Shown: positions 3,101 to 55,929 of the stretch, one piece after another | How positions within the stretch are numbered: the stretch's first letter is position 1 | How the letters are laid out: every line of letters starts with the position of its first letter | Source of the DNA: Nannochloropsis salina CCMP1776 | Taxonomy: Eukaryota; Sar; Eustigmatophyceae; Eustigmatales; Monodopsidaceae | Assembly: GCA_004565275.1 (NCBI GenBank) | Contig: SDOX01000018.1 | Location: 380,072 to 444,071, forward strand | Direction: 5' to 3' | Length of the DNA: 64,000 nt | Position numbers and translations under genes: made by a program | The notes under the pieces: generated by a model | Database searches by the model: none | What the model saw: the letters and a program-made list of their open reading frames with translations, nothing else | Told to the model about the DNA's origin: nothing

Positions 3101-4666
3101 GAGCGCCCGCTCTCTCCCCGACAGATCCGAGCCTTTGCCCAGGCCGCCGTGGAGTCCCCGCCCTTCCAACGCCTGCTGCCGCAGGGCGACAAATTCTTGG
3201 AGGAGATCGAGGGCTTCGCGGCCGACTTGGCCGAGGCCTTGGAATCCTTGCTGGTCTTTCTGGGCGCTCCCAAGGATGATAACCAAGAGGACGGTTACAG
3301 GGGTCTCTTGGACTTCGATGTGGACGCAGTGCGGGCCAAATTGACGGCCTTGACCGCGCTTGAGCGCCGGAACCGGGACGCGGTGGACGTCTCTGAGGAG
3401 CGACGAGGGATTGGGGCCCCGGCATTAGGCCAGGCCTGGCGGGAGACGGTGCAGGCGACGGTCTTCAATCTCGCCCGTATCACCGAGTCCCAGTTCCGGG
3501 TCATTTTGGAGGAGGCGCTGGGTCGTTATAACCGCGCGTGCGTCGAGCCTGGGGAGGCAGTGGGAGCCGTTGGGGCCCAAAGCATCTCGGAGCCGGCCAC
3601 GCAGATGACGCTGAAAACCTTTCACTTCGCGGGCGTGGCTTCCATGAACGTAACGCTGGGGGTACCGCGTCTGAAGGAGATCATCAATGCCTCCAAGGAG
3701 ATCTCCACGCCCATCATCACCGCCGCCCTTGTGCAGGACAGGTCTGAGACGGCCGCCCGCGTGGCCAAGGCGGCGGTCGAGCGCACCACCATCGGCCAGG
3801 TGGCCCGCCACATCAAGGAGGTGTATGCCCCCCACATGGTCTATGTGGAGATCCTGCTCGACCAGGAGGCTATCACCAAGCTCCACCTCCGCGTGGACGC
3901 GGCCTCCGTGCGCATGGCCATCCTGCGGGGCCCGCACCGAGCGAGCGTGCTCAAGGCGCTGAAGGAGCGGGACGTCCTCTACGACCCACGGCACCCGGAC
4001 CGTCTGCGTGTCCTCCCGCCGGAGCTGAAAGAGGGCCGGGCCGGCAATGCGGTCCCGTCGGAGCGGCGGATCTACTTCGTCATCCAGGCCTTGAAGGTCG
4101 CTCTCCCGGCGGTGATGGTGCGTGGCATCAGCACGGTGAACCGCGCGATCGTGAACAAGGTGGAGGGGGAGGAGGACCGGTACAACCTGTTGATCGAGGG
4201 CTACGGCCTGGCGGACGTGATGGGCACTCCCGGCGTCGACGGAAGACAGGCCAAGTCCAACCACATCATCGAGGTGGAGCGCGTGCTTGGGATCGAGGCG
4301 GCCCGCGCGGTGGTCGGGACGGAGATCGAGAACATCATGCAGGCATACGGCATTCGGATTGATACCCGGCACCGCATGCTCCTATCGGATGTGATGACCT
4401 TCAAGGGGGAAGTGCTGGGCATCACCCGCTTCGGCGTGGCCAAGATGCGAGAGTCCGTGCTGATGCTGGCCTCCTTCGAGAAGACAACAGACCATCTCTT
4501 CGACGCGGCTGTCCATGGTCGTACCGACGCCATCGTCGGAGTCTCCGAGTGCATCATTATGGGGATCCCCATTCCCCTGGGCACGGGCCTTTTCAAGCTC
4601 TTGCATGACGTGCCCAAGCCGGGAATTGCCGCGCGGAAGGGTTTACTGGACGAGCGGGTTGAGTGA
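191..4666 (+). CDS. RPC1: DNA-directed RNA polymerase III largest subunit
   Basis: Single uninterrupted frame of 1491 codons, close to the usual length of eukaryotic Pol III largest subunits (about 1390-1460). Seen: the N-terminal zinc ligands C67, C70, C77 and H80 followed by C107 and C110; the catalytic magnesium loop NADFDGDEMN with D501, D503 and D505; the bridge/trigger region beginning with EPATQMTLKTFHFAG at about residue 1134. It forms the catalytic core of Pol III in the nucleus, which makes tRNA, 5S rRNA and U6. Pol III rather than Pol I or II is chosen because there is no C-terminal heptapeptide domain and because the N-terminus and trigger region fit RPC1. The start is the first ATG of the frame and lies just before the conserved KISHIQFGLLS block. 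It converges on the HCP gene downstream. A run of G near 1080 encodes a short Gly stretch and leaves the frame intact. Confidence 0.96.
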   Translation: MKEPVRGEIAPKKISHIQFGLLSANQMERISEFQVYRSDLFTMPHRAPAPNSPLDPRLGVSDKTSSCATCKRKLTDCAGHFGHVKLALPVFHIGFFKHCQTLLACICKTCGRVLIPEAERRSFLRQMRSPSADALRKAGIFKRVVEKCKKASYCFECKAVNGKIKKIAGAATLKLVHERYSGRNGGVEHQALARAMKTALAHNREIANHLDKAQEDMSPLRVYQLFQKITDEDAVVLWLDPKHGRPEDLLLHNLLVPPVPIRPSVAMEVGGGSNEDDLTTQLVEILQINHSVRMLLAGGGQQQSIMEQWGFEQAQVSRFINGELPGSQQHYGEKKIRGLCQRLKGKSGRFRGNLSGKRVDFSGRTVISPDPNLAIDQVGVPLQVAKIMTYPERVSASNRERLKRLVLNGPSHHPGANIIRPSGDNAFTKSLSYADERQRRKMAEDLKLGDVVERHMVDEDVVLFNRQPSLHKLSIMAHRVKVMPWRTFRFNECVCAPYNADFDGDEMNMHLPQTEEARAEAATLMGVTSNLVTPRNGEPMVAATQDFITGAYLLTQKDVFLTREAFCRLAAYLGDAAEHIDLPPPSIVRPHQLWTGKQVFSLLIKASHRVDCDVNLEMEERNYSKADAMAYLCPQDGYVCIRRSELVSGNLCKKTLGGQKGGLYYVLLRDQGTEHAARCMNRLAKLCGRLIGGHRGFSIGIDDVMPSPVLLDLKRVLLEAGFSKCDEQIRLYETGKLPLKPGCNSLQSLESELNSVLGGIRRKCGEEALKKLPWHNAPRIMTECGSKGSDINISQMMAILGQQSVGGKRIENGFVNRTLPHFRPESLFPAARGFVPNSFFSGLTATEFFFHTMGGREGLVDTAVKTAETGYMARRLMKALEDLSLQYDDTVRNSEKTVIQFVYGDDGLDPAKMEDQSALLAFGAGDHSLGEHGEKGKGPPRWKKARASADRPVNFPRLLLQTLATHKAPHERPLSPRQIRAFAQAAVESPPFQRLLPQGDKFLEEIEGFAADLAEALESLLVFLGAPKDDNQEDGYRGLLDFDVDAVRAKLTALTALERRNRDAVDVSEERRGIGAPALGQAWRETVQATVFNLARITESQFRVILEEALGRYNRACVEPGEAVGAVGAQSISEPATQMTLKTFHFAGVASMNVTLGVPRLKEIINASKEISTPIITAALVQDRSETAARVAKAAVERTTIGQVARHIKEVYAPHMVYVEILLDQEAITKLHLRVDAASVRMAILRGPHRASVLKALKERDVLYDPRHPDRLRVLPPELKEGRAGNAVPSERRIYFVIQALKVALPAVMVRGISTVNRAIVNKVEGEEDRYNLLIEGYGLADVMGTPGVDGRQAKSNHIIEVERVLGIEAARAVVGTEIENIMQAYGIRIDTRHRMLLSDVMTFKGEVLGITRFGVAKMRESVLMLASFEKTTDHLFDAAVHGRTDAIVGVSECIIMGIPIPLGTGLFKLLHDVPKPGIAARKGLLDERVE

Positions 4667-5089
4667 GCCATATCGGATTGGCAAGTGGAAAGAGGGAAGA
4701 CGAGGTGATGGTACAGGAGGTATTCAAGAGAGAGGGCGCGCAGGACAATGTATTTATAGGGAAGAAGGGGGTCCATAGGATAGGGAGGCTGATAGTCTCA
4801 AGACCGTAGTGTACAGGATATGCCAAAAGCAATAAAGTACCACAACTTTTCCAGTCGAATCTTCGTGAGTCGTCCTTCATTCAATTTTATCATTACTCTA
4901 CGGTCAATTTAAATTTCGTGCTTAAGCCGACTGCATACGTCAAACCATGCTTGAAGCAAACTACTTACCTCCATTCTCGAGATGACTCCCTAGTCACAGC
5001 AAACGCACCTTCCCCCCTACCAATACCTCACATTCCGGTCATGTTTTTGTGGTCCCTTCATCCATTTTTCACTGAAACACATTCCAAGT
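4667..5089. other. Convergent 3' ends of RPC1 and HCP
   Basis: About 420 bases between the stop of RPC1 (+) and the stop of HCP (-). An AATAAA hexamer at 4831-4836 suits RPC1 polyadenylation. Nothing else is recognisable; presumably two 3' UTRs. Confidence 0.5.
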
Positions 5090-7974
5090 CTATCGAGGTG
5101 TGCGAGCAATCATCTCCTTCAAGTCTGCGTCGTGGTCTGCCAGGTTCACTTGCTTTACGCCATAGGTGTCCGCCAGGATCTGCAGGACATTTGGCGTCAG
5201 GAAAGCCGGTAGCTGAGGCCCTAACTTGATATTCTTCAAACCTAGAAAGAGCATTGTGAGGAAGACAGCCACGGCCTGCGGGAAGATCAGACGAGCAATA
5301 ATATGTAAGCAAATAATGGAACCTGGTGATGAAAATCTTCCTATATAAAAGCCACGACAGGTGAAACATACGGAAGGTACCCAAACCAACCAGGGTGGAG
5401 ACATCCGACCGCTACGATAATAGCATGGGTCAACCTACCTTCTGCTCGAACCAGGAAATGGCATACTGGAGAGGGAGATCGTTGACATCGCATTTGTAGA
5501 CTTCCGCAAGCGCAGTGGCGACCTTAATGGCTGAGTAAGCATCATTGCCTGTGGTGCATTCAAAAGTATTAAAAACGCGACAAATAGAAAGTAAGGTCAC
5601 AGTACTAAGGCACAGTCGTAACTTCAAAATGGTCTCACTCACATTGACCCATATCGAGCAGACGAGGAATGCCTCCAAGTGTAGGCTCGAAGGGAAGTTT
5701 GTTCCTGAGAGAAATCGTCGAGATAGAAGTGTTAGCGCTCTTCAAGAAGAAATTACCGGACATCTGCTTTCCCCTGTCTGCCTTAAGCATCCCCTCTTAC
5801 ATTCGATACTTTCCACAGCCCAGTGTGAGGATGACGGCGTCACGCGGCAGACCAGTGGCAATGTCACGGAAATATGTCCGGTTTGCCTCGGCCCCGTCAC
5901 AGCCTCCGATCAGGTAGAGTTGTTTGATATCTGTGCCGTGTTATGAGGACCACGAGTGTAAGATCTCACCCTCCGCTCCCTTCAACTCCTGCAGCAAAGT
6001 CTACCGGTCTTTGCGATGTCCTAAATCCACCCATGCCTGCTCCTCTCTGCCTCGCCTTGAGAGCCACGCACCTCCCGTGTTGATCGCGTTCACGATGTCC
6101 CCAGCCATGGAGAGGACCGCGTCGCGACCGTACCCTGTCGTGGTCACGTTCTTAGGCTTGTCCTCTGTAAATCCAGGCATGGCCAGCGCCTGTTCGATCA
6201 CTGCCGGAAATTGAGAGTCCCAGTCCTTGATGTGCTTGACCCCTCGCCATCCGACAACGCCCCTGTTCACGCGGAGAAGGAGATGTCAGACGAACTCTGC
6301 CGAGAGGGGAAGGCCGCATGGCTGGTGCTGACCTGGTATAAATGCGGTCCTTGTAGGCCTTTTGCGGCTCAATCAGACAGTTGGTCGTCACCACGACGGG
6401 GCCCTGGAAGGGAAAGAGAGCGCGAGGGCGGGGAAGACAGAAGGAGCAGCGATGTGCCATGAGGAATTTCCGCCTTTACTATTGCATCGCCCAACGCTCG
6501 TCCTGTGCAATGTCTCAAAGGGGTATACATAAGTATGTACGGATAGATTAGAAAGCGAGGCCTCAAGACCCACCGGAAAACGGGCAAACTCCACTTTCTG
6601 CGCCTGCCAGGCTCCCCCGTAGTTCCCCACCAGGTGGGGGTAGGCCTCTCGGATCTTGGGGTAACCGAAGGCGGGGAGGAGCTCGCCGTGGCTGTTGCGG
6701 TGGCATGAAGAAATGAAAAATAGAGAGACAAGAGAGAGATCGAGTGTCAAAATCTCCACAGCTTGCGCGGCCTCGTCCATCCCTCTTTCCTTCTCCCTCC
6801 AAATATTTCGACTACGTGTCCCTCCCCCTGAACGCACGTATAGACGTTGATGCCCCTGCCCGCCGTCCGCTTCAAAATTTCCTCCAAGTCCCGGAGGTCG
6901 TGACCCGAGACGGCGATGCACTTGCCTTTCACCGGCGTCGTGCGGACCTCCGTGGGGCGGGGGTGGCCGTACCTCCCTGTGGACCCGGCGTCCAGGAGTT
7001 CCATCACTTCCAGGTTGGTTTCTCCGCATCGAAGGGCCAGCTTCAGAAGACCCTCCGTACTCTGACTGGGGAGGTTGGCCAGGGCGGCCATGGCCTCATG
7101 GATGAAGGCGTAGACCGCCTCGCTCTCCTTGCCGAGGATCCGGGCATGGTCCGCGTAAGCCGCTGTGCCCTTAAGGCCGTAGAGGAGCAGCTCGCCCAGA
7201 GACCAGGCGTCGGGGTTCGGGGCCAGCTCTTTCCGGTGGTTTACCCCCACCATGTGCCCGATCGTCTCGAGTTTTCCGGCCTGGCCTTGCAAGGCGCTTA
7301 AGTCCATCTCGGCGGGCCCCGACAAGTGCGCACTCTCAATCTGCTTCCCCGCCACCGCCTTCTCATACAGAGACTTGGCACGGTCACGCGCCTCCTCAGC
7401 CTCCGCAAGAAATACCACGAAGCGATCAGCGTCGAAATTAACATTCGTGAGGGTGCTGTTACATGGTGAGGGAGTGCTGCAAGGTTACAGGCTGCCGTCA
7501 CTAACGTCCCCGCCGCCCCCAAATCTCTTACCTGAACAGGCTGTCCAGAAGGAAGCGATCTACGGATACGTCCGACAATCCACCGTGCACGCGGGCCAGA
7601 TGCGCGTACTGTGCAATTCCCATTGAGTAGTGCACGAGCAGGTCTTGAAGAGCGGCCGTCTCGGGGGTCTTTCCGCAAACCCCTTGAACCGAGCCTTCCG
7701 CGGGGCTGCAGGCCTTCCCGTGCTTGGTTTGTTCGCACTGGAAGCACATCATATCGTTGTTCCCAGCAGTGTTTTTTTCCAGTGTATCGATAGTGGATGC
7801 TCTCCGGGACAACACACGGGAACGAGGCGCACATTTGAAGACACTAGGCGTGGTGTGCAAGGAACGAACAAACCCCACAGAGGCGATGGTGACGCTTGGA
7901 CGCGAACTTGCGAGACATTGTTGCATCGATAAGAATGCAAGCGGCAGGAAGCGACGATTATGTGTCGTTAGCAT
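5090..7974 (-). CDS. HCP: Hybrid-cluster protein (hydroxylamine reductase/NO reductase family), organelle-targeted
   Basis: Nine exons on the minus strand: 7974-7532, 7455-6838, 6691-6574, 6403-6333, 6262-6072, 5930-5801, 5704-5643, 5548-5439 and 5275-5090. All joins are GT-AG and in frame, giving 642 residues. An N-terminal iron-sulfur motif has C77, C80, C89 and C100. Hybrid-cluster ligands can be assigned by family motif: His in GHDLRDLE, Glu in THGELLPA, Cys in [29 protein letters not shown] and GQCNDAYS, and the Glu/Lys pair in WFEQK. HCPs reduce NO or hydroxylamine and belong to anaerobic or nitrosative metabolism. The N-terminal 60 residues are Arg/Ser-rich without acids and look like a mitochondrial (or plastid) presequence. 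An in-frame ATG at 8040 would add 22 residues; 7974 is preferred because the targeting peptide starts there. Nine exons is unusual among its mostly single-exon neighbours. Confidence 0.93.
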
Positions 7975-41435: not shown

Positions 41436-42621
41436 GCCGGGGGGGCTGTCCGGTATGCGCACCTCAGAACCTGTGCTACAGGATTGACCTTGGGAAGCAG
41501 GCTTTTGCCGTATATGACAAAAGTGTACATGCCTGCATTTATATAAAATTAAGCCCTAGAAAGCCGTAGATAACTCTTGCATACATAGCATTGACCATGA
41601 GGTGTGCCGCACAGACTGGGCGTCTTGTCAATGCATGAAGCATAATACTTGGAAGGAAAAATAATTAAGGCGAACTGCACCTAATCGAGCGCAAAACTTT
41701 TGTGTGAATATAGAATTGCACTATGAGTGCAGTGAAATGATCAACCATGCCGGGCCACGTGAGGGACAGACGGCATGGCAAAGAAGTGCTGCAATTTACA
41801 GGATATTTCAGCATGACAATGGATTGGCGGTAGATACCTAAAAGTACTACAACAGAAAAGATTAATACGGGTGTTATCGGCTGTATGAAGAGATGTAGTA
41901 AAATGGAGGTGGGCAAAACTCAAAGGTTGGATGCATGTTGAGAGGCTCTTAAATTAGATATTTTTTGCTTTTTAAATAACCGCAGGAAGGCAATGTCATT
42001 GTGGCCCGATAGAAGGTGACAAATACTTGAAAACTAAGTTGTTAAATTGTATTGTGTTGTCTGGTGCTCTCTCGTTTCCGTGTTCTCCACCTTTTGTGCA
42101 CGTGTGCAAAAATATTCAGGTATGTTTCATGTATGCTTTCCAATGCGAAAGCGCTTTGTACCATGGGGAAATCGAAGTTTTGAATTGTTTATCAGTTCGT
42201 ACTTAACCAGTTGCTCCTCTTAAAATGATGTGCAGATGATGTCAATGCTATTAAAGCTGAATATGGCTGAGAAACGTATAGAACAAATAATCACACCGTG
42301 GAGATAGCACCGGGAGAAATAGGATGCCCGGAAGCAAGGCGAGGAGGCGATGCCAGCGAGGGCTGACTCGTATCACAGCCTATCTCGTCTTTATTGTGTC
42401 TTATACGCGTTCCTGCTACCCAGTACCCGAGTCGTCTATCTCTTCAATGTTCAGATTGCTGGTTTGTTAGAATGGTTGTGTTCTTGAACGATTGATCTTC
42501 GATCCTCCCCACAGGCAGCGCCCTTGCTTTGGCTTCGTCAGCGAGCTTGGACAGGGTCCTCTTTTTTCTTACTGGCTTATTCAGACTCCTTTCTTCCGAG
42601 TGACCCTCAGCCCGCCGCATA
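41436..42621. other. Intergenic
   Basis: About 1.2 kb between two + genes, AT-rich in 41.5-42.3 kb. Holds the Myb 3' UTR and the next promoter; no gene or RNA recognised. Confidence 0.4.
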
Positions 42622-44523
42622 TTGCCACTTCTTCTCATGGAGATGGAGGAAATAAATATGCTTCCTCCTGATGAAAGAGCCGTCGTTACTTGGTCGCACA
42701 GTAAAGGACGCAGTCGGCTGCAAGATGAAGCCTCGCAGCCCCTTCCAACTTTGACTTCCATCCAAGCGCAAGATAGCGCCCTGCAACCGATTGTCGAAGC
42801 ATTGTCACACAGATCTCTTTTACCTTCATGGTTTTGTTTCTCAAGGAGGAATAAAATAAGACGAGGGTATCCGCAGCGTCCATCTCATGTCGCCTGCACC
42901 CTCCTCCATGCCCTCAACCTCCTCCTCCATTTGCACCTGGCTCATGGCGCAATAACACTATCACCCCAGGCCCCTCTGTCATTCATATCAATCCATCACT
43001 TCATTCCAGTCTTGCAAATTCATGGCATTCCTGCCTCCTTGCCTAATGGCATCCAACGTCGCGCGATGAAATCCTCCTCCTCCTCCCCCCCTTCCTCCGC
43101 TGCTCCTTCCTCCCCCTCCTCCTCCTCACCTGCCCCTGCGTCGACCACCTGGAAAACCCTGAAAAAGAATCGAACGCTTAACGCCACCGACCCCTCCCTC
43201 TTAGACCTGGTGGGGTTTCGAGCTGGCCTGGACAAGAGCTATCGGCTCAAGCGTCAGTCCGCCCTACAAGCCCTGTCAGGGGAGGCGAGCAGGAAGGAAG
43301 GCGGGAGGAAGGGCAGGAAGGGGGGGGGGAAGGAGGACGAAGTGACACCACAAGAAGGGGGGGAACGGAAGCCCTGGGGTTACTGGAAGGACATCTCCCA
43401 GATCAAAGTCTCGGTGGAGGAGTTCTGGACGCGGTTGAACGTGACGAGTTCCGCCATCCCCAACGAAATGCTCCTCCGCCTCTACGACGCCCACGGCCTC
43501 CGGCACGCCATCTACAAGCAAGGGGGCCGAGAGACCCTGGCCTACCTGCTGGAAACGGACTACATCCCCGGTGATTTTCGGGTCGCCATGAAATTCCCCG
43601 AGGTCCAGGCCCTTGTCGAGGCCGGCGTCGTTGTCCCTCCCGCCAGCCCCGAGAATAAAGTGCTCTTGGACTCGCCCTCCCTCCCTCCCTCGGCCCAGGC
43701 CCATCCTCTCCAGGAACGACGGCTGGTGATTGGTCCGCGGGGAGGGGCAGTAATTTTGAACGAGCGTTTAAAAAATGTCCGATTTCCGCCCTCCTACGGC
43801 AAACCTGACGGGCAAGGGCGCCCGGGGGGCTGGAAATACCAGAACCGCACCGTCTGGAGCATTGAAAAGCTGGCCGAGGAATGCTACACCTTGGCGGAAG
43901 AGCACTCTGCCTCCCTGCACGTGCCGCTCCTCTTCTTTCCCAAGCTGAGTGACCTGGTAGGCTGGGGTCGGGCCAACATGATCAACACCATCCGCCGCTA
44001 CGGGGGCTACGAAGCGGTTATCTCCTCCCTCGGGTTCATTCCTTTCTCCCAGTGGAATTACTTCTGCCGCTTCTACCTGCTTATGAAGGACCTCAAGACC
44101 TATCTGGACGAGGAGGAAGGTGGAAGCCGACAAATGCCGACGTTAAGGGATGTGAAACGTGCGGGATACCACCGGTTATACTCGGAGGTAGCTCGAAACG
44201 GCGGGCGGAAATTGGTGGCTGCCCGGCTGGGGCTTCCGCTCAAGGCAGGGAGCGGGGAGAAAGGTAAATTTGCGACCATGATCAGCTATGGAGCTTTTGA
44301 CTTCGATTTCGGGGTCGCCTTACTCGAGTACATCATGAACAAGTGCTGGGCCCAGCACCCCCGGGAGAGGGCGGCCCGACGGGAGAAGGAACGCGTGAAT
44401 CTCTTTTTACCCACTGCGGAAGAACTGGTGGGGGACGAGAGACAGGATTTGTTGGAGAAGATAGTCCGGTATGGCGGGTTTGAGAATGTGGCGCGGCGGT
44501 TGCAGTTGGGATTCAAGAGTTAA
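42622..44523 (+). CDS. Protein with four W-x-GR-x-RYGG repeats, unknown function
   Basis: Open frame of 633 codons. From W252 onward four related units of about 60-75 residues follow: an aromatic start (WGYWKDISQ; WKYQNRTVW; WNYFCRFYL; ALLEYIMNKCW), an acidic helix, a P-x-x-x-x-L core (FPKLSDLVGWGR, MPTLRDVKRAGY, LPTAEELVGDER), then (I)RxGGxxxVxxxL (IRRYGGYEAVISSLGF, VARNGGRKLVAARLGL, IVRYGGFENVARRLQL). Such repeats occur in algal and plant proteins of uncharacterised role, often organellar; that link is from memory. The N-terminal 150 residues contain a hydrophobic stretch (CTLLHALNLLLHLHLAHG) and a poly-Ser/Pro run, suggesting ER/plastid targeting, but the true start or a 5' intron is uncertain. 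A later in-frame ATG precedes the poly-Ser. Confidence 0.68.
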   Translation: MPLLLMEMEEINMLPPDERAVVTWSHSKGRSRLQDEASQPLPTLTSIQAQDSALQPIVEALSHRSLLPSWFCFSRRNKIRRGYPQRPSHVACTLLHALNLLLHLHLAHGAITLSPQAPLSFISIHHFIPVLQIHGIPASLPNGIQRRAMKSSSSSPPSSAAPSSPSSSSPAPASTTWKTLKKNRTLNATDPSLLDLVGFRAGLDKSYRLKRQSALQALSGEASRKEGGRKGRKGGGKEDEVTPQEGGERKPWGYWKDISQIKVSVEEFWTRLNVTSSAIPNEMLLRLYDAHGLRHAIYKQGGRETLAYLLETDYIPGDFRVAMKFPEVQALVEAGVVVPPASPENKVLLDSPSLPPSAQAHPLQERRLVIGPRGGAVILNERLKNVRFPPSYGKPDGQGRPGGWKYQNRTVWSIEKLAEECYTLAEEHSASLHVPLLFFPKLSDLVGWGRANMINTIRRYGGYEAVISSLGFIPFSQWNYFCRFYLLMKDLKTYLDEEEGGSRQMPTLRDVKRAGYHRLYSEVARNGGRKLVAARLGLPLKAGSGEKGKFATMISYGAFDFDFGVALLEYIMNKCWAQHPRERAARREKERVNLFLPTAEELVGDERQDLLEKIVRYGGFENVARRLQLGFKS

Positions 44524-45461: not shown

Positions 45462-48400
45462 TCACCTCCGCCTCTCAAACACACTCCTGTTTATCCGCCT
45501 CTCCCTCTCGCATTCCTCTTCCTTTCCGACGGCGCTTCCAACACTCCCCTCCTCCGCCCACCGACTCTTGACCACCACCCGCATGCGCATTGTCCCCACC
45601 CGCACCCCACCCATCGAAAGCTCCATTGCCACTTGCTTCCGGCCCCTCTTTGAGACCACATCCCTCAAACAGACCACTCCTTGGCCCATATCCTGACCCT
45701 GACAATCGAGGAACTTCATTGCCATGTGCATTCCTCCGGCGGAGGAGACGAGGCCTTCGAACCTGACAGGAAAAAGGGAGGAAAAAAGGGAGGAAGTGAA
45801 GAAGAAGAACAGGGAGGGACAGAGAAGCAGGAAAGGGTCAAAGTGTACAGAAAGGGAAACACAGCCAGCCGAATAAGCAAGCACATGAAAAACAAGCACG
45901 AGGGAGGCGCAGAAAGATAGGGGAAGCGAAGAAATTTAGAGAACTTTGACGAGAAGAAAAATCAGAACAACGACTAAAAGAGACAGAATGGAGAACTTTT
46001 TGGGTTGATGACAACTCCATTACCTGAGCTCTCCTTTTTTCGTCACATCCGACCACTCGTAACGATGCGCGTGTGGTACCTCCTCCCACACCCGTGCCGC
46101 TTTTGTCCCACCTTCCTCCGCCGTTTCCGGCAATCTTGTGGCAGCACTGGAGGAACGTTTGCTCACCGGCGGTAGCTCTTCGCTGGTCTCAGTCACCAAA
46201 GAAGTGGAGGGAGTGAGGGAGGGCGGGGTCAGAGTCGAAATGGTGTTGCCCAGCAGCACGACACGGCGATGTGCGGCCCAAGGATCTTGTCCTGGGATCG
46301 GCATGAGGACAACAACAGAGCTGATGCGTGTTTCGCTGGAGGGGAAGGAGGAGGGACTGAAAAAATTTGTAAAGGAGGAGGTGGTGGAGGGCATAGAGAC
46401 GCGCCTGAGAGAGGGGGGAGGAAAAGGGGGATGCGCCGAGGCAGCCTCTTGGTTTTGCAGTGGGAGGTGAGAGAGGGACTGTTTCCGAGCAGAGGATGTG
46501 AAGGAGGAAGCGCCTTGGGGCAGAACGGGAGGAGCGCGGACGAAATGTGTGGCAGACGCGGCGGGAGTGTAGGCGGAGGGCGTGGCGTAGGACGCAGGAG
46601 TGCGCCTGAAAAATCCCAGGGGCCGGGGGAGGCGAGGAAGAGGATGATGGCGGGAGGGACGGCTGAGACCTGTTTCCAGGTCCTTGTCGTCATCTCCCTT
46701 TCCTGAGAGTGGGAGCACGCTCTTCCTTGTCTCCTCCTCCCTGGTTTGGCCTTCTCCCTCCTTACCCTCGGAATCATCTTCCTTCTCTTCCATCTCCAAA
46801 TCCATCCGTCCCATCCCTCCCACATGCGTTCGCTTCTCGCTACTCAAGGTCCCTTCCATTCCCTCACATCCCTCCATATCCCTCTGTGGCAATTCTGAGA
46901 GTACCGCCAGATGTTCCCCCTTCCTGATAAAAGGTATGGAGGCGAAGGGCAGAGGCGTGAGAGGAGGATAGGAGGAAGGTTCCAGACGCAAGGACGACCA
47001 CAGCGGCTTCTTAGGCGGGAAGATATCAAGGTGAAAGTGGGAAAGGCGGACGGAGAGGAGGATGATGGCAGATGGGGAGGAGGAAGAAGTAGGGGCTAGG
47101 AATGGGAGAGAATTGGAAAGGGAAGGAGGAACAGGGGGGGAGATGGTGGGAGCCAGGACGCGGGGGGGAAGGATAGGTAGAGACGAAGAGCGTCCCCCTA
47201 TGAAATTCTCGGCTACTCTTTCTGAGCCTTTTTCCTCGCTGCTGCGGCTCCAACTTTTCACTTTTTCATCCCAATATCCCTCAGTCCTTCCTTCTTTCTT
47301 CCGAAAGCGACGCTTCCACCATTTTTTTTCTGCGCTCCCGCCACCATGTTCCCCTTCCAGCCATCCTCTCTTCATCTTCCCTTTCTCCGACGTCACCAAG
47401 GAGAGTCGGAATGCCGCCACAATGGGCCGATGGTCGCTCCCCACAATGGCGTCGCACATGTCGTAAGCTTCCAGTTCCAACATCCCCTCCATTCCCGGCA
47501 ACGAGTGATACAAGACCCGGTCCGTCCAGGAGGGAGGGCGGCTTTCCCCGCTTCCCCCCGTCGCCTTTCCGGCATGTTTGTTGATGTAATAGGCATATCT
47601 TAAATCGCTTACGTTTGTGTAGTCCTCCACACTCCGTCCCGGATTAAATTTGAAGGTGGGAGGGAAGGTCAGGGGGCCTTCGCGGAAACCCGACAATGCC
47701 ACGCCCGCCCTTCTGGAAAGCGAAAGCTCATCGACTTCGTATACCCATTTCCAATGCTCCTGATCATTCCTAGTCTTTCGTTCTGGGCGCACAATGGAAG
47801 GGTAAGACGTTCCCCGTATGGCCCCCGCGACCACTTCCCGGCCTGCTCCGCATGCCTCCTCCCCGCCCTCCTTTCCTCTTTCTGACTCGTCTCCATCCCA
47901 TATTCGATTCTTGAGGTCGAACGCCTTCTCCTGGGCCTGCCCTCCGCCTCTAGCTTCTCGGAGAGGCTTTGGTTGGTTGAAGAAACGGTTGTAAGCATCA
48001 TCCCTGGTATAGAAAGCACGTATAAAGGTTATACACAGCGAAAATTGAGTACACCGGATACATGGTCTATCCTGTTACTTGTAAAAATCTGAAAATAGAA
48101 AGTACGGACGAAGCGACGGAGAGAAAAAGCATACTGGAAGGTGTCTCTCCGACTCCCCCTCTGACACAGCGCGACGGACAAGGATGCGTGGAGGCCGAGG
48201 TACACGGACGAGTGGAAGAAGACAGTCAAAAGGAAAAAGGGAAAGGGGACCACCCACCTCCAAGTGTGGCCCGAGTAGACAGGCCACCCTCTCTTCGCCT
48301 TTTCTACTTCGGAGGAGGCGGCGAGACGGCTCATGATCTCACCCACCGGGCACTGGGTCCGGTAGTTGAGGTCGCCCTGTAGAGCAATAGAAGGGGGGGG

Positions 48401-51400
48401 GATAAGGGCAAAATGAAAAGGATGGTAGATGGCACGTGTTGAGTGAGAATTTAACATCTTGAGTGGTGCGATCGCACCTTTTACTTTCCTTCCCCCCTTT
48501 CTCGCTCCCTTCTTTCCGTTCTGCGTACCAGTAAAATCACGTGGTCGTGTTGGAGGTGGACGTCGAATTCCTCCACGTCGCCTGCGACAAGCCAGGGTCG
48601 GGAGGCGAAGGGGGGGGGGAACAATCAACACTTTGTGAAGACAGGGAAGGTGTGACGGGGGCGAGAAATGCGGAGGCGAGAAATACGAAAAGTAGATCTT
48701 TTGTTAAAAACATGGGATAGGAACCAACTTCGTACACTCCTTCATACACACAAGGGCGTATTGGCCGTGGATGCATTAAAAAATAACAGAGAAGAAATAG
48801 AAAGAGAGGACAAGAGAAAATTACCTGCCAAATGCATCATGTGCAGGGTGCGCCAGGCGTCATCGTCGCGTCGGTGCCACCGTTTCTTGCCGCCACTGTC
48901 GCTCGCAAAGTGGCCCACTAGGAAGGCTATGGCCGTACCGTAGTACTGGAGGGCTACCCCGACCACGCCTGAAAGGAGGACAAGAAGTGGAAAGCGAGGG
49001 GGGGAAACGACGGGACGGGGTAAAAAGGAGGATGTAAGGCAATCTCAGCATGCAACATGATTTTCCTTTCAATCACAAAGTGTACTGAGAAGAAAAGAAA
49101 ATCAAAACCACAGAATGAAAAGGAAAGAGGAAGTATAACAAGGGAATGATTGAATAAGTGAAGTAAGGAAAGAGTTGAATCGCCCTAACCCTTGTTATGA
49201 AACCGGGAGAAGAGAAGATCAATGCCTGTCGCAACGCGACCCATGCCCCCTGTCTCGGCCAGCCGGAGGACCCCTTGCTGGACGTGATCCCGCCGTCCAA
49301 AGATGAGGAGGGCGATTTTGCCTGATGGAGGACAGGAAGAAGAGGAGGAACAAAGGCTCTAGAAGTAAGTGCGATGAGAAAGCATGGGTCAAAAGCGGGA
49401 AGAAACGAAGAGAAACGATGTGGATCTGGAGGAATTAGCGAGAAACAGCGAAAGAGGACAAGGAAAATAGGGGAGGGAGAAGGTAAGAGTGAGTTAGAGA
49501 GGTACCATGTGATAAGACTGAATCGCCAAGGGCTTGTTCAAAAAGAAAGAAGGCGCGAGGGCCTCCGATGTGACGATAGACAGCCTTGCGAATTTGTGAG
49601 AGGATACGGCACTCTTGGAGGGCCAGCACGTACAGGTCGTAGCCGCCTGTGCCAGAGTGGGAAGAAAGGGGCAAAGACAAGGAATAAAAAGACGATGTCA
49701 CTACACAAATGGCTCATGGAGGATATACATGGACGAAAAGGACAGAAAAATACGTAGTAAGAAGCAATGGAAGACAAAGCAGGAATTGAACAAAAGCGAT
49801 TAAAGCAAAGAAAGGGGAGGGGGCAGGGAATAGGGGAAAGGTCGGGGACTCGAAAACATACAAAGCTGCACAATATGTTTTCCCTGAAAATCTAAAAATT
49901 ATGTGGAAGATCTTCCGCACAGAATCACCTTAGGCAAAGATAAGAGACAGTAGGTAGGAACAGTGGATGGTGGAAAAGCGGGCCGAAAAACACAAGAAAA
50001 TTGACCAGTGAAGGCCCCGCAAAGGGGAGGAAAGATCACGCCCAAGATCTCCCTTACAAAAACGAAGGTTGGGGCAAAACATCCTGTGACCCGGAGCGTA
50101 CATGTCGGTATCCACTCATCCAGGCAGCCCATCTCCTCAACCCGCATACACGGTCCACAGTTAAGGCTGGTGGCGAAAATGCGGCATTCTAGACCCTCCT
50201 CCCTTTCCATTCCCGTTACATCCTCCCTTTTCCCGCTCTCGGCAGCCTGTCCCGGTCGGGATGAGGCAAGGGAGGAGCCTGACGCGAAGAGAGGACCATT
50301 GCCTCCCTGCCGCGTTTCTACATCCCTCACAAGCTTTTGAATGTCCGAGCGACCTTCAAATTTCTCCTCATTTTGCAACTCCTCCATCTCTTCCTCTTCA
50401 CCGTCCTCAGAAATTCCTATTGCGGTTTTGTCCCCCGCTTCCGTATCGCTCACCCACGAAAGCGCCTTTTCCCCTCCAAAATACCGGTATCTTCCAGAAT
50501 CTCCACTTCTTTCTTCCCATTCCAGCATTCTTCCAGGGAATAGGGTGAACCAAGAGCTAGTCCGTTCGTTCTGAGTTTCTTTTCTCCTGCGCCCATCACT
50601 CCCTCCCTCCCTTTCCCTCTCTCCCTCTTCCTCTTGGCCCCCCTCCTCCCCGGCCATGGTCCTGCTCCTCCACACCGTCATCAACCACTCCCTAATTTTT
50701 CCTCTCGTTCTTTCGCAGTTCACTGTAATGCCACCCATGGAAAAGGTTCCATAAGCGTAGGCAAGGGCGTCCAGAAACCCGATAAGGTAGTAGAGTTTCC
50801 CAATCAAGCCTAGGACGAGGACGGGAGGCAGAGCCCGGGGGAGGGTATCCGGTCTAACAGTCAAGATGATGTACCAAAGGGTGTTGAGGAGCCAGGCAAG
50901 GAAAAAAATGAGCGTAAAGAGCAGAAGGCGCCGGCGAAGGCTCCGGTACGACTGAGTGATGGAAGCCGGGGCGGTGAAGGAGGCCTGTCGGCGGATGTGA
51001 TAGAGTGTGTGGAAGTAGTTAAATCCTACGTAGAGCCAGCAGATGGGAAGGACGATTAGCTTGTTGATGAGTGCCGGCAGATTTGTCATATGGATGTCGC
51101 TGATCCAGCAGGTCACGCCCGGGCTCCCCCCAAAGGCGTGGTGGGCGAGCGGGATGGACGTTATTGCCAGGGAGACAACAAGCGTTAGGACGAAGAGGAC
51201 GAGCATCCGACGGTACAACTTTCGCAGTAAAACTTTTTGGACAATCCAAGCGTGCAGACTGTAGGACAAGCAGCTATGCCACAAGTAGAGGGCAATGTCG
51301 AGGGCGTAGGTAAAGCCTCCTATCACCTTGCAGGCAACCTTCCGGCCTTCCATTTCGGCTGTGGTAACCTTGGATCGAGGGGCGCTTCCAAACGGGCTGC

Positions 51401-51878
51401 TGCCGTACAGCTGCTCGGAGATTATGGTGCCAGTTATCCAATTCACGGATTGCCAGAGCTCGAGGCCCATCAAAATGGTCACAATCAAGTCGAGGAAGCG
51501 ACGGATGCCGCGGTGTCGACGTCGTTCGTCAGGGTGCGGTGCTTGGCCCTGGCCATGCCATCGTCTGACGGGCGGTGAGAAAGGGAAGCGTAAGAAGAAT
51601 TCTGTGCAAAAATCTCGACATGTTTGTACCGCAAGATGGACAAGTGGTAACGTCAAAGGGAGGAGATGAAAATGGGGCGTAAAATTGAGCTCGTACCTGC
51701 CCCAGATCCCCACAAGCACTGAGGACGTGGCCGCGATCGACAAGGAGAGAATGACCAGGCTCTCTATAAAGAGTATTTCACTGCCTCGCAGGTGACGGCT
51801 GTGGTTTTCTGTGGTATCCTTTTCCTGCTGCGCGTCAAAAAAACCCGGGGTAGGGACGGTAATGCCAAATGTCGCCAT
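45462..51878 (-). CDS. Seven-helix GPCR fused to inositol-polyphosphate 5-phosphatase and C2-like domain
   Basis: Nine exons: 51878-51697, 51564-50102, 49646-49506, 49321-49190, 48968-48825, 48581-48529, 48376-48258, 48003-46024 and 45762-45462; total 4515 nt, 1504 residues, all joins in frame. Residues about 33-335 hold seven hydrophobic helices in GPCR arrangement, with C139 at the start of helix 3 and C213 in the loop before helix 5 placed for the usual disulfide. About 340-510 is a charged linker. The 5-phosphatase (IPPc) domain follows: RIFATSLNCG, YDLYVLALQE, GHFAS, GDLNYR (G706 on), PPSWTDRVLY (W904) and SDHRPIVAAF (H936), so the catalytic set looks complete. After a disordered stretch of about 430 residues the end (HRYEWSD...RFEGLVSSAGGMHMAMKFLDCQGQDMGQ) resembles a C2 lobe. 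Intron 1 (132 nt) has no stop and could be retained. It would couple a receptor directly to phosphoinositide turnover at a membrane. Confidence 0.86.
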
Positions 51879-53135: not shown

Positions 53136-55120
53136 CTAACGATATCCCGACAAGGTACGGAGTAAGTGCCACAGCTCGAAATCAAAGCTTTCCTTGGCCT
53201 GCAGCCAGGGATCTGTCCCGTTGTTCTCCCGCATGAATTCCTCCCTCTCCCGCATCGTCTCATTCCGCGCCCGCGCGTAGTCGCGGCGCCACTCCTCGTT
53301 CATCTCCGCGGCCTTCTTGCTCCATCCCTTCATCTTCTTCCACTCCCCTCCTTGCGCCCTCAAAACCACCCTCGCCACCCCCCTCTCCCCCTCCCTCCCT
53401 TTCCATTTCCACACGCCCCCCTTGCCACCGCTCCATCCCTGGACCCCTGCCAGCGCCCACGACATCGTCACCGCGACGCGTCGACAACCGCCTATCACCC
53501 TCCTGGTCAGGGAGGCAATGGCCACTGCCTCCCTCCTCCCCCCCTCCTCCCTCCCTCCCCACCCGTACGAACGGCCCATCTCCCTCCCCTCCCCCCGCCC
53601 TCCTCCCCCCATGCTCTCTCCCCCATACAAGGACGACAACGGTGCCAAAACTCCCACACCTACTCCTCCAGCGCTGTGCCACCCCTCACCCCCTCCCCTT
53701 TCCATAAAACCGCCCTTCATAAACCCTCCTTCCCCATCGATAAGCCATGGATAAGAAAGGACCCCGTCCCAGCCCATCGTCTGCGCCGCTCTCTGGCCCT
53801 TCCCCTCCCTTCCTTCCACATCCATCCATTCTGCCTTTCGTCCCCAGCGGACACCGGCCGCCCCTCGTCATCTAGACAAAACCCCGCTTGACCTGCCAAG
53901 CTTCCATCCCTCCCTCCTTCCCTCCCTCCCTTCCGCCCGCCCGCCCGCCCGCCCGCCCGCCCGTCCAGAAGCACCTTGGTCCTTTCCAAGGCCGCAGAAA
54001 TGGCGCGAACTGGCACGTATTTCCCTTCCCGATACGCCCTCCACACATTGCGCAAGATCAATTCCTCCTTCCCCACCTCCTTCCCCAATTCTTTTCCCCA
54101 CCTTAAAAACCGGACCCGTCGTCCTGCTTTTCCCGCCAAAAGGATCGCCTCCTTGAAGTCACGAGCCTTGCTGTTCGTGTTGCCCCACGCGACCGGCCCG
54201 GGTCCACAAAGGCTGCGACTCAATCGCTGGTAGCTTCGGCGAATGGCCTGGGGGAGGAGATCGGGGAGGAAGAGCTGGTAGTGGGAGGCTGCGGGGGGGC
54301 TCCAGGTAGCCACAGTATCGACTTTGGTCGTCGTTGCGATAGTGGCTCGCACTTTTTCAATAGCATGTAGGAGTAAAGCGATCCACTCGTCTTCTTCGGA
54401 GGGGTAGGAGGAGGAAGAGAAAGAGGAAGAGGAGGAGAAGGAAGAGGAAGAGGAGGAGGAGGAGGAGGAGGAGGAGGAGGAGGAGGAGGAGGAGGAGGAG
54501 GAGGAGGAGGAGGAGGAGGAGGTGAGGGCTCGAAGCCCTTGCTCTACGTTTTCTATTTCCCACATCCCGTGCAAATATCCCAGGACTAATCTGGACTCAA
54601 CTGTTGCTGAGTCATCACATCGAGAAGAAAGTGTCCGGCCTTTAATCAGCTTGTCCTGACTTCCCGCCCTCCCTCCCTCCCTTCCTCCCTCCCTCCCCCC
54701 CTCCAGGAAAAGAGGCATCGGAAGAGGCACATAAAGACCTGCCTGATCATCGATGGCTACATCCACCAAAGGAGGCGCGAATGAAGGCCGGCTTTCGTTG
54801 AGGTGCTTGAGGAGGGTGGTCTTCCCCGCACATTGGGGGCCGACGGTGATGAGGAGGGAAGGAGGACGCTTAAGGTCGTATATGTCTTGCTGGAGGGAGA
54901 GAAAGGCATCCCTATCGATATGCCCATAATTGCTGACACTGTTTCGGCGTGAGTTATGTCTACATGTGCGCCCACATTGGGAGCGCGAGAAAAGAGGAAG
55001 CTGAAAGGCGGAGCAGGGTTCCAAGAGGAGTCCCAAGACGAGGAACGATGCAACAATACAGGACAGCCAAAAAAAGGCTGCTATAAATAAACTTCGTGGC
55101 TTGGCCATAAGTCCTGTCAT
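53136..55120 (-). CDS. Plastid-targeted P-loop (AAA_33/PNK-like) kinase, 3' part unresolved
   Basis: The main frame runs 55120-53717 (467 codons). Residues 11-38 are a strong signal helix ending CSAF-QLP, the bipartite plastid motif. Walker A is GPQCAGKTT at 94-102; VDVAIDDQAGLYVP follows. The C-terminal half has PVAWGNTNSKARDFKEAILLA, RRVRFLRWGKEL and NVWRAYREGKYVPVRAISAAL, which resemble bacterial and fungal polynucleotide-kinase-like P-loop proteins. A poly-Ser run of about 40 residues comes from the (AGG)n tract. A second minus frame (53825-53136) ends in a convincing C-terminus (EWRRDYARARNETMREREEF, then FELWHLLRTLSGY) and probably is the last exon, but I could not fix the junction; the first frame may read into an intron after DDEGRPVSAGDE. 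Substrate unknown. Confidence 0.68.
53907..53963. repeat. (CCCT)n/(CCCG)n tract in the kinase coding region
   Basis: Tetranucleotide units on the + strand; on the coding strand they read as G-G-R-A/E repeats. Confidence 0.9.
54401..54522. repeat. (AGG)n trinucleotide tract
   Basis: About 120 bases of AGG/GGA units with few AAG interruptions; on the minus strand it codes poly-Ser. Confidence 0.95.
54665..54704. repeat. (CCCT)n tract
   Basis: CCCT/TCCC units inside the plastid kinase frame, coding a G-G-R-E repeat on the minus strand. Confidence 0.9.
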
Positions 55121-55929
55121 GGGTGGTAGGAATAGCCGGGAAGGAGATCATCCGACTGTGCAGACAGGGCATATGCACGCCACTTGCTTTTGCTTGTGAT
55201 TTGCGGTTGAAGTGCTTCAAGAAAAGAGAGAGAGGGAGCCATACAAAAAATATGGCTCTACAGGAATCCAAAAAATTGTCTGAACCTTGGTACTAAGTTT
55301 TACTTCCGAAAGAAAGGCATGTCTTTGTGCGGAACCACGGCTGTCTTTGTCCTGGCTGAAGCAAGGACGCATAAATTGTTCGTATGACCAGGGTGGGAAA
55401 ACACCGTGTCTTTGGCGACACAGGAATGCAAAAATAAACCAAACACGTCGAGGTTGCAGTGCTGGGCGGTGATCTCCGGTCAAGTGTAAGACGGGAGACC
55501 GCTTGGCCATGCGTGACGATCCGGCAGGTATGTGTGGTGGCCATGGCGTGGCTTCCACACGATGTCAAGGTATTTTTTCCCCCTTCTTACTTGCTTCCCC
55601 TCGTCCGCTATGCCGTTCATAGATCGATCCATATGGCTATTGACATGGGGGCCTTAAGTCTGAAAGCCGCTCGACACCACTGTCTTTTCAGAGACCATGA
55701 ATGCCATGGGCTACGTGACGATGTGGATGGCAGGTCATGGTGGGCGGTGTATTATTTGTGACGTAATTAACGCAATCGAACTCTTGCCTAGGGTTCAGTC
55801 GGTTGCCTGGTGATGTCACAGGATCGAGATCGGTCGCCGCTCCTTTATTGCCACTCTTTGTCAAAATCCCCACACTCCGTCCATCATCTGCTGACCACAC
55901 CTCGAAACCTGTATAATTTCACATTTCAG
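55121..55929. promoter_or_regulatory. Divergent region between the two P-loop kinase genes
   Basis: About 800 bases. A possible first exon of the + gene lies at 55633-55732 (ATG at 55633, weak GTCATG donor); its phase fits the acceptor at 55929. Both promoters are expected here. Confidence 0.35.

Follow-up and report, generated by a model that had tools for sequence, protein, structure and literature searches.

We report a gene in the eustigmatophyte alga Nannochloropsis (Microchloropsis) salina CCMP1776 whose predicted protein has a receptor-like seven-transmembrane (7TM) part, an inositol polyphosphate 5-phosphatase (IPPc) domain behind it and, at the C-terminus, a conserved module. The gene lies in a 64,000-nucleotide stretch of contig SDOX01000018.1 (hereafter the window), on the minus strand at 51878-45462, where nine exons separated by eight GT-AG introns encode a predicted protein of 1,504 residues plus stop. 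This architecture, an N-terminal 7TM part followed by a C-terminal inositol polyphosphate phosphatase (INPP) in a multigene family, is that of the G-protein-coupled receptor (GPCR)-INPP bigrams, which the available text of van den Hoogen et al. (2018, mBio, PMC5784254) describes in oomycetes and in N. gaditana. By its count, P. infestans and N. gaditana have seven such genes each, other oomycetes have one to nine, and no other taxon has any. The original prediction had placed bigrams mainly in oomycetes and Dictyostelium; the architectural likeness to oomycete bigrams holds, but the GPCR-INPP type had already been reported from N. gaditana. Given this precedent, we reject a categorically new system: the window gene is a sound case, in N. 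salina, of a type already known from its sister species N. gaditana. Further literature on algal GPCR-INPP was absent among the matches listed. Beyond the species, what is new here is the conserved module after the IPPc domain and a paralogue from which catalytic residues have been lost, both small additions.

The nine-exon, frame-keeping model of the original prediction was reproduced, including the exon 2/3 junction at 50102/49646. TM2-TM7 and the first strand of the IPPc domain sit together in a single open frame within exon 2, and the paralogue C14 (L020, 807-5468, minus strand) carries the 7TM part, IPPc domain and C-terminal module in one 1,554-codon open frame, so the fusion is independent of splicing guesses. 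From exon 2 on, the junctions after residues 548, 595, 639, 687, 705, 744 and 1404 are each spanned without gaps in one or more of six aligned homologues: only P0001 at residue 548, only P0034 and P0036 at residue 687, and P0005, with P0003 gapped, at residue 1404. The gene model is thus supported by homology, and the predicted single gene for all three parts, in a photosynthetic stramenopile, stands. A merger of two neighbouring genes by the model, to which the longest of the eight introns (455 nt, 50101-49647) might point, is very improbable: a break there would cut the phosphatase rather than split receptor from enzyme, because exon 2 carries both. Two separate genes are rejected on this ground and on that of the C14 frame. 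Chance likeness is rejected as well, since six further loci of the genome also show a multi-helix part followed by an IPPc domain.

One intron called for a decision. The 132-nt intron at 51696-51565 is in frame and without a stop, and when kept as coding it adds 44 surplus residues, giving an eight-exon, 1,548-residue model. We rejected this model, as splicing yields a first inner loop (GIWGRRWHGQ...RRFLDLIV) like that of the paralogues and leaves seven hydrophobic 19-mers ahead of the IPPc domain instead of eight. The N. salina genome paper reports 254 million transcriptomic reads and names a public transcriptome, SRR9992829 (PMC6953503).

The IPPc assignment is real. PF22669 matched exon 8 without its first base at E 6.7e-16 (59.1 bits versus a cut-off of 27), and the spliced domain matched SHIP2 (3nr8) at 2.4e-18. 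The catalytic motifs, among them the set that the original prediction called complete (LQE, GDLNYR, PPSWTDRVLY, SDHRP), are intact: TSLN (526-529), LQEC (558-561), NKG (638-640), GHFASD (658-663), GDLNYR (706-711), PPSWTDR (901-907) and SDHRP (934-938), which together contain the catalytic set TxN, QE, H, GDxN and SDH. We take the TxN, QE, H and SDH positions to be catalytic sites. Asp707 of the window protein aligns to SHIP2 D607, the catalytic base according to the available text of PMC5550278. With its catalytic residues intact, the domain is predicted to be an active 5-phosphatase.

SHIP1 and SHIP2 (INPP5D and INPPL1) are the best solved sequence match to the window IPPc domain and by fold tie with INPP5E. 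Like the window protein, they keep the catalytic Asp and have a conserved module after the IPPc domain; unlike them, the window protein has a 7TM part in front and no SH2 domain that we could see. The module itself is conserved in homologues, and to this extent the C2-like end of the original prediction is borne out. We regard it as only possibly a SHIP-type C2 domain. The Pfam C2 families gave no match in the window protein or the paralogues searched, nor was PF24147 (C2_SHIP1-2_2nd) matched in the family. Against a SHIP-like C2, hhalign returned an E value of 0.0054 but a probability of 6.8, and the AlphaFold2 (AF2) strands in the module have predicted local distance difference test (pLDDT) scores of about 43-72. 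In Foldseek, five SHIP1 phosphatase-C2 rows span about 860 columns (rmsd 16.6-20.1); one SHIP1 row (6dlg) and all those with a SHIP2 phosphatase-C2 chain stop at about 570 columns. The C2 part of a second model lies outside the VIA-align ranges, which by the tool's own caveat proves nothing.

The window gene belongs to a family. PF22669 gave 20 matches over the genome, grouped into 12 loci, ten of which resemble the window gene (C55:610 kb and C52 were set apart). A clear multi-helix part precedes the IPPc domain at seven of the ten (window, C99, C14, C1, C57, C36 and C55:1.13 Mb); hydrophobic frames are only partial at C72 and C13, and C11 could not be judged. All three parts again share one open frame, of 1,223 codons, at C1, which is NSK_000083 of N. 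salina CCMP1776 (1,219 residues; the 616 compared are identical). The same domain order appears in P0036 (1,215 residues, ENA) and P0035 (572 residues, eukprot). In an IPPc tree of 26 rows, the nine labelled GPCR-INPP, among which P0001 and P0002 were counted by likeness, form one clade with support of 100/100. The 26 rows come from 39 gathered; 13 (C52, P0009, P0014, P0018, P0022, P0024-P0030 and P0033) were dropped at motif cutting, and P0003-P0005, P0035 and the loci C36, C72, C13 and C11 were never entered. The full-length and IPPc homologue searches used the 1,548-residue letters, whose surplus falls in the first loop, outside the scored IPPc part; the full-length search returned no match among 7,992 scored candidates, perhaps swamped by low-complexity words. 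None of the matches from the homologue searches could be assigned to a GPCR-INPP of an oomycete or of N. gaditana, and the common descent with oomycete fusions implied by the original prediction, in which the alga keeps such a receptor, is a possibility only. A separate locus, C55:610433-611428 (L018), encodes what by eye is an OCRL/INPP5B-like 5-phosphatase of the same IPPc superfamily, with further C-terminal sequence that was outside the family search. Unlike the window gene, it falls outside the GPCR-INPP clade, and its reading frame contains no multi-helix part.

The catalytic Asp of GDxNYR is retained in the window gene and at six of the nine other loci, is Asn in C99, and belongs to a motif that was not found in C13 or C11. 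C99 (L014, G000:C99:47500-55500, oriented 3120-6125) has a 7TM part and a long tree branch, and its IPPc domain reads FDMA for the SLNCG of the window gene, VQRS for LQEC and GNLNYR for GDLNYR. Because these catalytic residues are lost, the equivalent of the SHIP2 base among them, C99 is probably an inactive pseudophosphatase.

For the receptor half, hydropathy at thresholds of 1.0 and 1.2 predicts seven non-overlapping 19-mers before the IPPc domain, as the original prediction had it. Its helix 3/loop cysteine pair fared less evenly. C139 (at TM3) and C213 (second outer loop) are present in the window protein and invariant in the five rows of the 7TM profile, and the pair is retained in the groups of the window gene, C1 and C99; the paralogues C14, C57, C36 and C55(1.13 Mb), which that profile left out, each lack one or both aligned cysteines. 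Loop charges, with helix ends set by hand, fit an N-terminus outside and a C-terminus inside. The profile searches proposed at the outset placed PF22669 over its cut-off but no 7TM family, and paralogue C55(1.13 Mb) reached 7tm_1 at E 0.029 (14.3 bits versus a cut-off of 30.5). A genome-wide search with the Dicty_CAR profile gave no match, though no control matched either. We therefore use the name GPCR for the predicted topology only.

Taken together, we think it fairly probable that the protein is a GPCR-INPP bigram whose 7TM bundle, moved by an outside signal, sets the removal of 5-phosphates at the membrane. The basic inner loops and the N-terminal sequon would place the N-terminus outside and the IPPc domain on the cytosolic side of the membrane. 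A signal from outside would shift the helices and turn the 5-phosphatase rate up or down, and the enzyme would remove the 5-phosphate from its putative substrates, PI(4,5)P2 and/or PI(3,4,5)P3, in the same membrane; that this removal would be direct is suggested by the intact catalytic residues and the predicted topology. By analogy with the C2 domain of SHIP2, the C-terminal module may boost the enzyme. A G-alpha protein might work upstream of it or in parallel.

Several observations weigh against this reading. No 7TM Pfam family passed its cut-off for the window protein (best Dicty_CAR, E 0.059, 12.9 of 21 bits), and no PDB chain matched the 7TM profile. The AF2 model of the receptor half is poor (pLDDT 49.7), its input DNA holding the 132-nt intron. 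The same hydropathy test gives six helices in P0034, six or seven in P0036, and eight or nine in C14 with linker peaks included. Between TM7 and the IPPc domain lies a low-complexity linker of about 190 residues, whose length and composition make tight mechanical coupling less likely. The lost catalytic residues of C99 further indicate that activity is not essential for every member.

This linker, together with 7TM parts that are far less alike among paralogues than their IPPc parts, keeps alive a simpler role in which the 7TM part does no more than anchor the protein, and the enzyme, constitutively active, is merely tethered at the membrane. We consider this unlikely, though it is the strongest rival: seven loci retain a multi-helix part although one helix would suffice, the cysteine pair persists in three groups of the family, though not in all paralogues, and the fusion is present in P0035 and P0036 too. 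Less likely still is a protein that signals mainly as a receptor through G-alpha, with the IPPc domain a scaffold or slow signal terminator. The altered motifs of C99 would suit such a role, as would the one G-alpha match over cut-off in the genome (G000:C52:540680-541759, E 1.1e-113; five more fell below it), but a dead scaffold needs no catalytic Asp, and most of the family keeps it. The G-alpha frame has one internal TGA, perhaps an intron. Beyond the signal-gated bigram that we favour lies a bolder and doubtful extension, in which eustigmatophyte surface receptors would be SHIP-like phosphatase-C2 enzymes acting on inositol lipids without a G protein, and C99 would regulate the active members as a pseudophosphatase.

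The nearest other fusions are the GPCR-phosphatidylinositol phosphate kinase (PIPK) bigrams, RpkA of Dictyostelium and GK4/GK5 of Phytophthora, which likewise join a 7TM part to an inositol-lipid enzyme, a kinase rather than a phosphatase. GPCR-PIPK is mentioned in the available text of work on oomycete inositol trisphosphate (IP3) signalling (PMC9694693) and is given as absent from N. gaditana in that of PMC5784254. N. salina is alike in this: none of its six PIPK loci has a multi-helix bundle upstream, among frames of at least 60 codons ending within 4.5 kb, and L042 and L045 each have one frame in which overlapping windows mark a single hydrophobic stretch. A genome-wide PI-PLC-X profile search gave no match, though no control matched either.

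Coordinates of the gene and its parts are collected in Table 1. Two other frames of the window lie nearby. On the minus strand, 53720-55147 is an open reading frame with a P-loop (GPQCAGKTTLLKHL), an AAA_33 match below cut-off (E 0.0027) and a long poly-serine run; on the plus strand, 42604-44520 is a 639-codon open frame that adjoins the 3' end of the gene and has no Pfam match at 0.01.

Table 1. Features of the GPCR-INPP gene, in window positions.
Feature	Position	Strand	Basis
Exon 1: start codon, N-tail with N-x-S sequon (N25), TM1	51697..51878	-	gene model, hydropathy, loop charges
Exon 2: TM2-TM7, charged low-complexity linker, first IPPc strand (FATSLNCG...LDEWIPT)	50102..51564	-	gene model, one open frame
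Exon 3: IPPc, LALQEC (Glu of QE motif)	49506..49646	-	gene model; junction aligned to P0001
Exon 4: IPPc, ending NK/G	49190..49321	-	gene model, homologue alignment
Exon 5: IPPc, GVVGVAL and GHFASD	48825..48968	-	gene model, homologue alignment
Exon 6: IPPc, short core exon	48529..48581	-	gene model, homologue alignment
Exon 7: GDLNYR (Asp707, equivalent of SHIP2 catalytic base)	48258..48376	-	gene model, SHIP2 alignment, PMC5550278 (available text)
Exon 8: IPPc end (PPSWTDR, SDHRP), low-complexity stretches, first strands of C-terminal module	46024..48003	-	PF22669 6.7e-16, gene model
Exon 9: last part of C-terminal module (GGMHMAMKFL...GQGVVCLRD...VVVKSR), stop	45462..45762	-	gene model, conserved in homologues
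7TM receptor-like bundle, residues 34-330, C139/C213, TM7 motif FLDALAY	50757..51779	-	gene model, paralogue alignments, hydropathy
Inositol polyphosphate 5-phosphatase (IPPc) domain, residues about 523-945	47403..50180	-	PF22669, SHIP2 match, motifs
Conserved C-terminal module, possibly SHIP-type C2, broken by low-complexity inserts	45555..47075	-	homologue conservation

A fusion of receptor and enzyme could let an outside signal alter membrane lipids in one step; our literature search found no demonstration of such one-step lipid signalling by a GPCR-INPP. Review and survey literature on these proteins, in the text available, centres on oomycetes, many of them pathogenic. Nannochloropsis is tractable for genetic modification (PMC6953503). 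The single-frame C1/NSK_000083 and the catalytically altered C99 would be convenient test pieces, and this harmless alga is suited to asking whether the receptor part controls the enzyme.
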